A DNA stretch of 64,000 nucleotides from Salinigranum halophilum. GTDB lineage: Archaea; Halobacteriota; Halobacteria; Halobacteriales; Haloferacaceae. The notes below the pieces were generated by a model. That model made no database searches. It saw nothing but the letters and a program-made list of their open reading frames with translations, and had not been told where the DNA came from. The DNA is taken from NCBI RefSeq assembly GCF_007004735.1, contig NZ_ML660182.1:552130-616129 (forward strand), read 5' to 3'. How positions within the stretch are numbered: the stretch's first letter is position 1; the number at the start of each line of letters is the position of its first letter. The translations under genes and the position numbers were made by a program. Below, piece by piece: positions 1,400 through 5,915 of the stretch.

Positions 1400-2443
1400 T
1401 CAGGGCGGGGTGATGACGGCGCGTCCGTCGATCTCGCCGTGTTCGAGCCGTTCGGCGACGGTGTTCACGTCACCCAGGTCGTACCGCTCGGTGTGGAGGT
1501 CGACGGCCCCGCGGTCGACGAGCGCGACGAGTTCCTGCAGTTCCGCGTAGCGGCCGACGAGCGTGCCCCTGAACGCGAACTCGCCGTTGACGAGCGCCTG
1601 TGCGGGTTCGTGGATGTGACCGCCGTAGCCGATGATGTGGTGGTCACCGCCGGCGGCCGTGATGTCGGGCGCGAGCGCCGTCGTCTCGTCGCGGCCGACG
1701 AAGTCGAGCACCTGCTGTGCGCCGACGCCGCCGGAGAAGTCCGTGACGGCGTCGGTCACGTCCTCGGTCTGGGGGTCGACGGTCTCGTCGGCTCCCAGGT
1801 CCGACGCGAGGGCGCGCGCGGACTCTTTGAGGTCGACGGCGACGATGTCGGCGGCGGACATCGCCCGGAGGCACTGCAGGCCGATGTGGCCGAGGCCGCC
1901 GACGCCGATGACGACCGCCGTGTCGCCGGGGTTGAGTTCGCGGACGGCCTTCTTCGCGGCGTGGTAGGCGGTGATGCCCGCGTCGGCGTGCGGGGCGATG
2001 TCCGTCGGGTCGACCCCCGCCGGAAGCGGAATCACGGCGCGTTCGGAGGTGAGGAGATACTCGGCGAACCCGCCGTCGTGGGTGAGCCCGTTGAACTTCG
2101 AGTCCTCGCAGTACATGTCCTCCCCCAGGCGGCAGGAGCGGCAGGTCCCGCAGGTCTGTACCGGATGACAGATGACGGGGTCGCCGACTTCGACGGTGGT
2201 CACCTCGTCGCCGACCTCGCTCACGATTCCGGCGTTCTCGTGGCCGAGTGTCATCGGGAGGTCCTGCGGGGCGTACTCCGTCCACATCCCCTCGATGATG
2301 TGATTGTCCGTCTGGCACCATCCCGCTCCCTCGACCTCCACGATGACGCCGTCGGAACTGTCGATGGTCGGGCGGTCAATCTCGTCGACCGACAGCGCCT
2401 GGCTCATGTCGTGGGTGTACTCGTGTAGACGCGCAGCTTGCAT
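1400..2443 (-). CDS. Zinc-dependent NAD(P)-alcohol dehydrogenase
   Basis: A 347-residue medium-chain dehydrogenase. Catalytic zinc ligands are Cys43 (AGWCQTD) and His68-Glu69 (LGHENAG). Structural zinc cysteines are 98, 101, 104 and 112. The Rossmann glycine motif GVGGLG lies at 180-185. It oxidises an alcohol to an aldehyde or ketone with NAD(P); the substrate is not evident. It is divergent from the amidohydrolase-DUF59 pair with a 181-base shared upstream region. In actinobacterial propane/acetone monooxygenase loci, as I recall them, such a dehydrogenase sits beside an amidohydrolase and a DUF59 protein, so a role with short secondary alcohols is possible but inferred only from context. 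Confidence 0.9.
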   Translation of the reverse strand: MQAARLHEYTHDMSQALSVDEIDRPTIDSSDGVIVEVEGAGWCQTDNHIIEGMWTEYAPQDLPMTLGHENAGIVSEVGDEVTTVEVGDPVICHPVQTCGTCRSCRLGEDMYCEDSKFNGLTHDGGFAEYLLTSERAVIPLPAGVDPTDIAPHADAGITAYHAAKKAVRELNPGDTAVVIGVGGLGHIGLQCLRAMSAADIVAVDLKESARALASDLGADETVDPQTEDVTDAVTDFSGGVGAQQVLDFVGRDETTALAPDITAAGGDHHIIGYGGHIHEPAQALVNGEFAFRGTLVGRYAELQELVALVDRGAVDLHTERYDLGDVNTVAERLEHGEIDGRAVITPP

Positions 2444-2624
2444 AGCGATTAATCATGATGGAGCTCGGACAAAAAGCCCTCGTCTAGCGGAGATGTGTGT
2501 CCGCCACTGTACTGTCCCGCCCGGTGGGGCGCTCGCGCGGACGAGTGCTCCCGACAGTATTCACGGGAGAAATGATGAATAATTATGTTAATTATTTATC
2601 GGTGGTGTCCTCAGGCAGAATCGC
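2444..2624. promoter_or_regulatory. Divergent promoter region, alcohol dehydrogenase / amidohydrolase
   Basis: This 181-base intergenic region serves two divergent genes. On the plus strand, ATTATTTATC (2591-2600) is centred about 28 bases before the amidohydrolase ATG, a standard haloarchaeal TATA position for a leaderless message. On the minus strand, a T-rich CTTTTTG box near 2470-2478 is at the matching distance from the dehydrogenase ATG. The stretch 2571-2602 is far more A+T rich than its surroundings. I see no strong palindromic operator. Confidence 0.6.
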
Positions 2625-3683
2625 ATGTACACCTACGAAGGCGAAGACGTGTTCGTTATCGACGGACACACGCACATGTGGGACGCGACGGAGGAGAACA
2701 TCAAACACGAGGGTGGCGAGCAGTTCATCCAGTGTTTCTACGACTATCACACCGGGTTCACACCCGAAGACCGCCAGCGCGACATCGACGACTACCGGAA
2801 GTTCACGCCACAGGAGATGAAAGAGGACCTCTTCACGAACCACGTGGACATGGCGGTGTACCAGCCGACCCACCTCCACGAGTTCTACACGGAGGGGTTC
2901 AACACCGTCGACGACCTCGGCCAGACGCTGTATCAGGACCACCCGGACCGGTTCGTGCTCAACGGACGCTGGGACCCGCGCGACGGTGAGGCCGGGCTGA
3001 AAGAACTCGAGCGACAGAAAGACGAGTACGACGTCAAGGGCGCGAAGGTCTACACGGCGGAGTGGAAGGGCGACTCGAAGGGGTGGCGCCTCGACAGCGA
3101 AGAGTCGTACGAGTTCCTCGAGAAGTGCGTCGAACTCGGCATCGAGAACATCCACCCGCACAAGGGGCCGACCATCCGCCCGCTGAACAAGGACGCCTTC
3201 GACGTGGGTGACGTCGACGACGCCGCGACGAACTTCCCCGAACTGAACTTCATCGTCGAGCACGTCGGGCTCCCCCGACTCGACGACTTCTGCTGGATCG
3301 CCACGCAGGAGCCGAACGTCTACGGCGGTATCGCCGTCGCCGCCCCGATGGCGCTCGGCCGCCCGAAGAAGTTCGAGGAGATCATGGCCGAACTGCTGTT
3401 CTGGCTCGGCGAGGACCGCATCACGTTCGGCTCGGACTACGGCATCTGGGACCCCGACTGGCTCATCGAGGCCATCATGGACCTGGAGTTCTCCGAGGAG
3501 ACGGTCGAGGAGTTCGGCGTTGAGTTCGACCTCGAGACGAAGAAGAAAGTCATGGGCGAGAACATCGCGGAGCTGTACGACATCGACATCGAAGAGCGGA
3601 AGGAGCAGTTCCGAGACGACGCCATCAGCCAGGAGTTCGGCCTCGGTGACACCTACAGCGCGCCGGCCTCGGCGGACGACTGA
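2625..3683 (+). CDS. Amidohydrolase family protein (PF04909), monooxygenase-cluster type
   Basis: A 352-residue TIM-barrel metallohydrolase. N-terminal metal ligands are in IDGHTHMWD (HxH). FIVEHVGLPR carries a further His, and FGSDYGIWD carries the late Asp ligand. From memory, the sequence around AVYQPTHLHEFYTEGFN, VKGAKVYTAEW and HKGPTIRPLNKDAFD closely resembles the amidohydrolase encoded beside binuclear-iron propane/acetone monooxygenases (mimABCD/prmABCD) of mycobacteria and rhodococci. The real reaction of that protein is not settled. Its stop codon overlaps the start of the DUF59 gene by one base, so the two are translationally coupled. No monooxygenase gene is within the window. Confidence 0.88.
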   Translation: MYTYEGEDVFVIDGHTHMWDATEENIKHEGGEQFIQCFYDYHTGFTPEDRQRDIDDYRKFTPQEMKEDLFTNHVDMAVYQPTHLHEFYTEGFNTVDDLGQTLYQDHPDRFVLNGRWDPRDGEAGLKELERQKDEYDVKGAKVYTAEWKGDSKGWRLDSEESYEFLEKCVELGIENIHPHKGPTIRPLNKDAFDVGDVDDAATNFPELNFIVEHVGLPRLDDFCWIATQEPNVYGGIAVAAPMALGRPKKFEEIMAELLFWLGEDRITFGSDYGIWDPDWLIEAIMDLEFSEETVEEFGVEFDLETKKKVMGENIAELYDIDIEERKEQFRDDAISQEFGLGDTYSAPASADD

Positions 3684-4462
3684 TGTCCGCGACACCCGCC
3701 GACGTCCGCGCGCGACTCGACCGTGTGACGGACCCCGAGCTGGACGAGTCCATCGTCGACCTCGACTACGTCGACCGCATCGACATCGACGAGACGTCGG
3801 TGACCGTCCACTTCACACTCCCGACGGCGTGGTGTTCGCCCGCCTTCGCCTGGATGATGGCGACGGACGCCCGTGACGAACTCGAGTCGCTCCCGGACGT
3901 CGAGACGGCCGCGGTGTACCTCCGCGACCACATGCACGAGACGGAGATAAACGAGGGGGTCAACGAGCGCCAGTCGTTCGAGGAGTCGTTCCCGGACGCC
4001 GACGGCGAGGTGGCCTCGGTACGTGCCACGCTCGACGACAAGGCCCGTCTCTCCCGGCAGTACGCGGCCGTCGAGGCGCTGCTCGACGCCGGGGTCTCTC
4101 CGGAGCAGCTCTGTGAGCTGACGCCCGCCGACGTCGACATCGAATCCGCTCCCCGCCGTGAGGGCGCTCGCGCCTCGGTCTACCTCGCCGACGGTGCGTT
4201 CGCGGTCACCGTCGACGCGCGGCCGCTCGACCGCTACCTCTGTAAGGCGCGCGCCGTCGACGCGGTCACCGGCGACGACGACCGGCTGTTCCGGACCCCC
4301 GAGGGCGACCCCATCGACCCGGACGCGTTCGAACTCGTCCACCAACGCGGTCGCCTCGCGCAGACGAACATGACGGGACAGGGCGGCGTCTGTGACGCGC
4401 TCAACGAGAGCCGACGCCGGAAGCTGAACCGCGACAGCCCGACGGTCGTCGACGCCGACTGA
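3683..4462 (+). CDS. DUF59/MIP18-family protein with C-terminal extension
   Basis: A 259-residue protein. Residues 1-80 are a DUF59 domain (VTDPELDESIVDLDYVDRI, then LPTAWCSP with the conserved Cys). This family includes Fe-S cluster assembly factors and the phenylacetate-oxygenase maturation protein PaaD. The remaining 180 residues (HMHETEINEGVN onward) are not a DUF59 domain. DUF59 proteins are known to accompany multi-component oxygenases, and a DUF59 gene follows the amidohydrolase in propane monooxygenase clusters. It is coupled to the upstream amidohydrolase by a one-base overlap. A maturation or metal-loading role is inference; its client would have to be elsewhere in the genome. Confidence 0.8.
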   Translation: MSATPADVRARLDRVTDPELDESIVDLDYVDRIDIDETSVTVHFTLPTAWCSPAFAWMMATDARDELESLPDVETAAVYLRDHMHETEINEGVNERQSFEESFPDADGEVASVRATLDDKARLSRQYAAVEALLDAGVSPEQLCELTPADVDIESAPRREGARASVYLADGAFAVTVDARPLDRYLCKARAVDAVTGDDDRLFRTPEGDPIDPDAFELVHQRGRLAQTNMTGQGGVCDALNESRRRKLNRDSPTVVDAD

Positions 4463-4778: not shown

Positions 4779-5549
4779 TCAGAGGTACGTGATGTTCAGT
4801 TCGATGACGTTCGCGGCGCTCCGAAGCTGGTCGGGGAGCTCCGACTGGAAGCGGTCGCCGCGCAGCCTGCTCGTCGGGCCGGCGACGCTGATGGCACCGA
4901 GGACGTCGCCGTCGTCGGTCCGAAGCGGCACGGCGACGCTCCGCAGGCCGTTGATGCGTTCCTCGTCGTCGAAGGCGACCCCTTCCTCTCGAATCTTCCC
5001 GAGTTCCTCGGCCAGCGCGTCCGCGTCGGTGATGGTGTGGTCGGTCAGCGCCGGGAGCCCCCGCCAGTCGATGACCTCCTGGACGTGGTCGTCCGACGAG
5101 AACGCGAGCATGGCCTTCCCGAGGGCAGCACCGTGGAGGTGGATACGTTTGCCGACGTGCGTGTCGACGTGGACCGCCTGGTCACCCTTCGCCCGGTGTA
5201 AGAACACTCCGTAGCCGTGTTCCTCGACGACCAGCCCCGCGAGTTCGCCCGTCCCCTCCGCCAGCGCCGTCACCTCGTCGCGCGCGATCCGGTAGACGAG
5301 GTAGCGCTCACGAGTCATCGACCCGAGTTCGAGAAACCGACAGGCGAGGCGGTACTGGTCGTCCGTCTTGACTACGTAGCCCCGGCGGTTGAGCGTGTCG
5401 AGGTGGTTGTACACGGTGCTCTTCGGCTCGTCGAGTTGCCGGGCGAGTTGGGTCACGCCCGCGGTTCCGATGTCGTTGAGCGTCTCGACGATACGGAGCG
5501 TCGTGTCGACGGCACCGATGAGCCCGTCGGCGTCGTGGTCTCGTTCCAT
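4779..5549 (-). CDS. IclR-family transcriptional regulator
   Basis: A 256-residue one-component regulator. The N-terminal winged helix-turn-helix (about residues 15-70) includes VTQLARQLDEPKSTVYNHLD and RRGYVV. The rest is the IclR ligand-binding (GAF-like) domain, with the typical GEEGVAFDDEER-type and SVAVPLR segments near the C-terminus. I chose the ATG at 5549: a TTGTATCA box (about 5572-5580, reverse strand) is centred 27 bases upstream, while the longer reading needs a GTG at 5564. It is divergent from the cyclase gene and is the only local regulator of the 5-22 kb catabolic genes. IclR proteins usually control adjacent catabolic operons in response to a pathway metabolite. Confidence 0.9.
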   Translation of the reverse strand: MERDHDADGLIGAVDTTLRIVETLNDIGTAGVTQLARQLDEPKSTVYNHLDTLNRRGYVVKTDDQYRLACRFLELGSMTRERYLVYRIARDEVTALAEGTGELAGLVVEEHGYGVFLHRAKGDQAVHVDTHVGKRIHLHGAALGKAMLAFSSDDHVQEVIDWRGLPALTDHTITDADALAEELGKIREEGVAFDDEERINGLRSVAVPLRTDDGDVLGAISVAGPTSRLRGDRFQSELPDQLRSAANVIELNITYL

Positions 5550-5915
5550 GAGTACTGGTACCACGTATGTCCTGATACAAAAAACATCTGTTCTGTCTGA
5601 TTGAACACGACGTCAGCCGCCACCGGTCGTGACTTGTACACGTCCCACATACGTTCTACCCTGCTGAACACCTGTCTCACGAGAGAAGCCGCGACCCACT
5701 CGCTCGATATGTGGGCACGAACACACCTCAGGAGCGCCTATCAGGTGAGAAATTGTCTCACGTCGAATCGAAATAAACCGCTCCACAGCGCGGGACTGCT
5801 CGAGACGTGCGTTCCACACTGATGAACAGCGGCGAACCATTTCTGGACGCGTGTCGACGTCGACGGCGCACACGTGGAACAACACTTATCACCCTCCTGC
5901 GGGAGGTGCACGTGT
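5550..5915. promoter_or_regulatory. IclR/cyclase divergent intergenic region with candidate operators
   Basis: This 366-base region holds no supported ORF. It carries the IclR TATA box on the reverse strand near 5576 and an ACTTATCAC box (about 5884-5892) centred near 28 bases before the cyclase ATG. A perfect inverted repeat GTGAGA-AATTG-TCTCAC spans 5745-5761. The octamer TGTCTCAC occurs at 5673-5680 and again, inside that repeat, at 5754-5761. CACGTG occurs near 5870 and 5910 on either side of the cyclase TATA box. The 17-base palindrome is my best guess for the IclR binding site. Confidence 0.5.

Follow-up and report, generated by a model that had tools for sequence, protein, structure and literature searches.

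In a 64,000-nucleotide stretch of the haloarchaeon Salinigranum halophilum (contig NZ_ML660182.1, positions 552,130 to 616,129 of the forward strand; hereafter the window), genes for an alcohol dehydrogenase (ADH), an amidohydrolase (AMH) and a DUF59/MIP18-type protein with a long extension lie side by side, in the same adjacency as in the MimABCD/PrmABCD (group V SDIMO) monooxygenase operons for propane, acetone and phenol. We found that this trio is an oxygenase-independent unit, widely conserved in haloarchaea and in many bacteria. Its parts belong to known families and the mim/prm association has been published; the new points are that the trio is not bound to this association, that an oxygenase-free module is conserved across domains, and that the pairing of AMH with DUF59 is a general rule in the haloarchaeal lineage. 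The preliminary description of the window was right about the composition of the trio, for which the open reading frames, the Pfam matches and the AMH motifs AVYQPTHLHEFYTEGFN and HKGPTIRPLNKDAFD are all present, and about its surroundings, since no hydroxylase, reductase, coupling protein or GroEL gene lies within 16 kb to the left (taken partly from the genome beyond the window) or ~10 kb to the right.

AMH orthologs, counted at an identity of 58% or more and leaving aside 27 genomes with only a ~30% tier, are present in 123 of 394 haloarchaeal genomes. Among 40 haloarchaeal loci picked for diversity, the DUF59 gene directly follows AMH in every one and the ADH is adjacent in 34; given these frequencies, the trio is not a chance arrangement. 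Beyond the trio, no neighbor is conserved in more than 7 of the 40 loci (shadow open reading frames of the trio ignored). The PF02332 hydroxylase, for which four positive-control plasmids match at 1e-61 to 1e-76, gave no match in the S. halophilum genome even at E<=10, and it is absent from all 123 AMH-bearing haloarchaeal genomes. It does occur in 4 of the 394 genomes, all of them lacking the trio AMH, and no AMH or DUF59 gene was seen near the three of these four loci that were read; they probably represent an aromatic hydroxylase system without the trio. An extradiol-dioxygenase-like gene was also noted in two of these hydroxylase-pair loci.

The situation in bacteria is comparable, in that the trio without oxygenase is about as frequent as the trio with one, and the oxygenase-free form is found in Chloroflexota, Thermomicrobiota, Bacillota, Poribacteria, Ignavibacteriales, Rubrobacter and others. 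PF02332 is absent genome-wide from 21 of 28 bacterial genomes with an oxygenase-free AMH locus (three positive-control genomes match). Based on plasmids and named genomes, with a 26%-identical Sphingopyxis pair left out, GroEL is present in 30 of the 32 Mim-bearing loci, in 0/31 oxygenase-free bacterial loci and in 0/28 haloarchaeal loci, whereas the corresponding counts for DUF59 are 31/32, 30/31 and 28/28. The GroEL-like MimG, the reductase MimB and the coupling protein MimD are likewise missing from all 28 haloarchaeal loci within ~10 kb. Since GroEL, unlike DUF59, is limited to oxygenase loci, the trio is separable from the oxygenase and its chaperonin.

The haloarchaeal members of a 61-sequence AMH tree group in a single clade (100/100). 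Oxygenase-linked members fall in two other clades, of which the first is rich in Actinomycetota (100/99) and the second consists of Pseudomonadota (97/98), and the oxygenase label switches at least 7 times on well-supported branches. The oxygenase-free state is likely ancestral. The proposal that the trio serves a distant oxygenase is therefore not supported: the genome-wide hydroxylase search, the AMH tree and the comparison of neighbors, in which the trio is widespread without an oxygenase beside otherwise unconserved genes, all speak against it. Because the trio is a conserved unit in haloarchaea and in many bacteria that lack such a monooxygenase, it must have a role of its own. The alternative proposal of a different, undescribed role in haloarchaea is thus supported as far as the different role is concerned, but this role is not peculiar to haloarchaea, as the same free unit exists in several bacterial phyla.

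The kinship with the mim/prm operons is nevertheless close. For prm/mim clusters, the literature describes an amidohydrolase, a gene labeled "unknown function" or "iron-sulfur cluster assembly", a GroEL-like gene and an ADH (PMC6849523, PMC9213486, PMC7176365). The amidohydrolase and the "protein of unknown function" are listed there next to the oxygenase, and no function has been assigned to them (PMC6849523, PMC9213486). In Mycobacterium sp. AT1, the amidohydrolase, the gene of unknown function and the ADH are elsewhere in the chromosome, and GroEL alone adjoins the oxygenase (PMC6849523). In a tblastn search of plasmid records, bacterial AMH homologs stood out at 48–54% identity, all other matches being at ~31% or less. 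Complete MimABCD-GroEL operons with an AMH homolog were found in Paracoccus, Caballeronia, Aminobacter, Bradyrhizobium and Ponticoccus, and a MimA-like gene lies just upstream at the Rhodococcus AMH locus. Aligned over their full length, the window AMH is 46–53% identical to its counterparts in MimABCD operons, the DUF59 protein, extension included, 28–36%, and the ADH 45–50% to the ADHs of bacterial mim or trio loci. The one exception is an ADH of Ponticoccus at 28% identity, which for this reason is probably a different ADH adjoining AMH. Judged by these alignments, all three genes are orthologous to the accessory genes of the operons, in line with the preliminary description, in which the same gene types surround mim/prm monooxygenases. 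The differences lie in the missing hydroxylase, reductase, coupling protein and GroEL, in the ADH of the free trio, which is usually divergent, and in the separate haloarchaeal AMH clade. Both arrangements occur together in Prauserella alba, where a complete Mim operon with AMH-DUF59-ADH-GroEL has a second AMH-DUF59-ADH trio a few kb away on the opposite strand.

AMH is predicted to be a metal-dependent member of the amidohydrolase superfamily within PF04909, based on its Pfam match, the TIM barrel of its structure model (mean pLDDT 92.7) and its conserved ligands. In a fold search, the model is closest to PF04909 decarboxylases and hydratases, although sequence searches against the PDB returned nothing with the single sequence and one weak uncharacterized match with a profile. 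Its metal-ligand pattern consists of an HxH motif (H15, H17), H179, H213 and D271, with K141 on the fourth strand; H15, K141, H179, H213 and D271 are invariant in 52 AMHs and H17 is present in 49 of them (Ala in 3). The retention of this pattern across 52 sequences argues for an active metal enzyme and not a dead scaffold. AMH shares the barrel and the HxH...H...H...D ligands with mononuclear enzymes such as ACMSD, the gamma-resorcylate and 5-carboxyvanillate decarboxylases and the LigJ hydratase, but it is only 13–19% identical to them in the fold matches, and differs further in its invariant fourth-strand Lys and its obligate DUF59 partner.

This partner is the most constant companion of AMH. 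In all 67 haloarchaeal cases, the spacing of the two genes lies between -4 and +5 nt, and in the window the DUF59 start codon overlaps the AMH stop codon (TGATG). In Thermomicrobium and Poribacteria, DUF59 precedes AMH, so that the adjacency is kept despite the inverted order. Haloarchaeal paralogs only ~30% identical to the window AMH have DUF59 immediately downstream in 17 of 17 cases, here as a shorter version that lacks the long extension. DUF59-domain genes and Amidohydro_2 genes number only four each in the S. halophilum genome, and two from each set stand in adjacent pairs; the second pair consists of a 26%-identical amidohydrolase (C4:810-1787) followed by a 147-aa DUF59 gene. Over 110 loci, the AMH and DUF59 distances correlate at 0.90 (haloarchaea 0.60, bacteria 0.86), above the AMH and ADH distances at 0.81 (haloarchaea 0.45, bacteria 0.58); these values include shared phylogeny and serve for comparison only. 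Given the 40/40 haloarchaeal loci, the 17/17 paralog loci and the second pair, AMH and DUF59 form the core of the trio. We found no description of them as a pair in the part of the literature that was covered. As the pairing is near-universal and extends even to remote paralogs, it would seem that TIM-barrel metalloenzymes can have DUF59 proteins as partners of their own.

The DUF59 protein itself has both the FeS_assembly_P domain and the conserved Cys (C51) of the DUF59/MIP18 family. Its structure model (pLDDT 93.8) matches DUF59 and FAM96A structures in the N-terminal part, while the conserved C-terminal extension adopts a mostly helical fold for which no significant structural match was found. 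C51, H83, K120, C237 and R244 are invariant in 39 of 39 sequences. The protein thus resembles SufT, PaaD and FAM96A/MIP18 in its domain and conserved Cys, but its long folded extension, which contains another invariant Cys, sets it apart from them, as does a partner gene that codes for an amidohydrolase in place of a Suf, Paa or CIA component. By analogy with these relatives, it may have a role in the maturation of a metal or Fe-S cofactor. Weak, non-significant but concordant hints of a tyrosine-recombinase-like core were seen for residues ~125–214 of the extension (Cre/XerA in Foldseek, XerD at E 0.28 in a profile search, and one Pfam Phage_integrase match at E 0.17).

Taken together, we cautiously favor, at somewhat better than moderate confidence, the hypothesis that the trio is a self-standing module of small-molecule metabolism and not an oxygenase appendage, in which an active metal-dependent AMH, a dedicated DUF59 maturation partner and a secondary ADH act together, and which was later combined with MimABCD-GroEL. 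AMH would be a TIM-barrel enzyme of the PF04909 hydrolase, decarboxylase or hydratase type, and the translationally coupled DUF59 protein would serve as its maturation partner, most likely by delivering iron or another metal or by activating the site. The ADH, whose nearest solved relatives are the Aeropyrum ADH (1h2b) and the secondary ADH-A of Rhodococcus ruber, might catalyze the reversible conversion between the carbonyl substrate of AMH and a secondary alcohol (or hydroxyketone); the module would presumably act on a small hydroxy or keto compound. Recruitment to MimABCD-GroEL would then have taken place in Actinomycetota and Pseudomonadota, in which the oxidation of propane or acetone yields these same small, oxygenated C3-type compounds. 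The AMH of one mim cluster made up 3.2% of the proteome during growth on 2-hydroxyisobutyrate, and the same cluster was strongly induced on acetone too (PMC7176365); this abundance fits an enzyme rather than an assembly factor needed in catalytic amounts. As the module occurs without an oxygenase in more than 100 archaeal genomes and several bacterial phyla, its role can be studied without the oxygenase.

Several points weigh against this hypothesis. No substrate or activity is on record for any member of the trio, and DUF59 proteins are otherwise tied to Fe-S maturation and not to the loading of mononuclear metal sites (PMC4982691). Some Bacillota lack the ADH and carry H17 -> Ala. The root of the AMH tree is unresolved, and hence the direction of recruitment is only inferred. 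Further, 7 of the 28 bacteria with an oxygenase-free AMH locus carry a PF02332 hydroxylase at another site of their genome, and the T. roseum plasmid has one too; in some bacteria the trio could therefore still act in trans for such a hydroxylase.

A more far-reaching proposal, which we put forward tentatively and consider possible rather than probable, is that AMH-DUF59 pairs are an unrecognized two-component class, in which an amidohydrolase-superfamily enzyme needs a private MIP18-type protein for the installation of its iron (or iron-sulfur) cofactor. The class would comprise no fewer than two versions of distant kinship, and its chemistry might be of the redox or O2 type instead of hydrolytic. 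In the amidohydrolase family of the second pair, neither the first His of HxH nor the Asp on the eighth strand is kept and a new His-Pro motif is present, which suggests a different metal site. Near the distant haloarchaeal pairs, an acetyl-CoA-synthetase-like ligase is found in 12 of 17 loci, a short-chain dehydrogenase/reductase (SDR) in 12 of 17 and an aldehyde:ferredoxin oxidoreductase in 6, hinting at a catabolic pathway that ends in acyl-CoA.

Alternative to a secondary alcohol pathway in general, the module might handle acetol and methylglyoxal, with the ADH oxidizing acetol to methylglyoxal and AMH converting methylglyoxal to a harmless acid, a scheme that would suit both acetone oxidation by MimABCD and organisms without the oxygenase. 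A route from acetone to acetol and on to methylglyoxal, with participation of the ADH of the cluster, has been proposed (PMC7176365). A gloA-annotated gene of the glyoxalase superfamily lies near an oxygenase-free AMH-DUF59 pair in Rhizobium N324, and DJ-1/PfpI genes lie near AMH-DUF59 in four Bacillota loci, where the trio ADH is mostly missing. However, such neighbors are limited to these lineages and absent from haloarchaea, and we know of no precedent for chemistry of this type in PF04909, so that we regard this substrate as improbable.

It is also rather unlikely that AMH and DUF59 act in the assembly of a dinuclear-iron oxygenase, which in haloarchaea would have to be encoded elsewhere. 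Both proteins are consistently present in group V SDIMO operons, DUF59 proteins assist Fe-S or iron enzymes (PMC4982691), and, among NCBIfam families, the DUF59 domain comes closest to PaaD from a di-iron epoxidase. Against this stand the lack of a BMM hydroxylase in all 123 trio-bearing haloarchaea, the lack of AMH and DUF59 at the haloarchaeal BMM loci, and the lack of any conserved neighbor besides the trio in the 40 haloarchaeal loci. MimABCD expression reportedly requires GroEL (PMC6849523, PMC7570240), and this chaperonin is precisely the component missing beside the free trio. P450 and PaaA-type oxygenases were rejected as clients, as neither is associated with the trio in 80 haloarchaeal genomes: P450 genes are nearly universal with and without the trio, PaaA occurs in about 23/40 trio-positive and 19/40 trio-negative genomes with similar shares for PaaA/PaaC, and the S. 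halophilum genome has no PaaA/C.

Finally, AMH itself might be an oxygenase, with DUF59 as a metal or electron partner and the trio as a complete oxygenase-dehydrogenase pathway. Amidohydrolase-type dinuclear oxygenases (AROs) are a recent discovery (PMC7782822, PMC10401708, PMC10811679); they fall within PF04909, and candidates have been reported from haloarchaea too (PMC10401708, PMC10811679). AMH shares the fold and catabolic gene setting of AibH2, PtmU3 and SfbO, its model matches SfbO (8sm6) and the related 8sm7 at E ~1e-7 to 1e-6, and the module recurs in catabolic operons. However, non-redox decarboxylases are closer structural matches, and the ligands of AibH2 are Asp25, His27, His211, Glu265, Asp337 and His340 (PMC7782822), i.e., Asp-x-His, His, Glu and Asp-x-x-His, compared with His-x-His, His, His and Asp in AMH. 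By motif comparison of 52 AMHs, His replaces Asp25, the usual His is found at the sixth strand, and there is no His at +3 after the eighth-strand Asp, so that AMH appears to miss the dinuclear signature. No Rieske or reductase gene was seen to be conserved beside the trio in the 40 loci, although no search aimed at PF00355 was made. We regard an oxygenase function of AMH as unlikely.

The coordinates of the trio and of the adjoining regulator gene are given in Table 1.

Table 1. Genes of the trio and the adjoining regulator, in window coordinates.
Gene product	Position	Strand	Length	Remarks
Zinc-type medium-chain (secondary) alcohol dehydrogenase (ADH)	1400-2443	minus	347 aa	Pfam ADH_N + ADH_zinc_N; ortholog of mim/prm operon ADH, by alignment
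Amidohydrolase (AMH), predicted PF04909 metalloenzyme	2625-3683	plus	352 aa	Amidohydro_2, E 7.6e-44
DUF59/MIP18-type protein	3683-4462	plus	259 aa	FeS_assembly_P (= DUF59) at residues 6-78, then ~180-residue extension
IclR-family regulator, tentative candidate regulator of the module	4779-5564	minus		Pfam/NCBIfam

The ADH is oriented divergently to AMH. To the right of the trio, the IclR gene is accompanied by genes for a PF04199 cyclase, a xanthine-type permease, another ADH, an MFS transporter and a CoA-transferase, and to the left lie genes for a thioredoxin-like protein, a photolyase-related protein, an acyl-CoA synthetase, an aldo/keto reductase and others. An IclR gene is found at the same position in a genome of the same genus, and IclR genes adjoin the trio also in Thermomicrobium, Thermogemmatispora, Ktedonobacterales and Ignavibacteriales loci. 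In the same-genus genome, AMH is split over two frames (query residues 1–119 and 106–352) in an otherwise syntenic neighborhood, which is a frameshift or assembly error. A long AMH frame in one of the genomes was considered as a fusion and rejected, as its coordinates show an upstream extension of the open frame.

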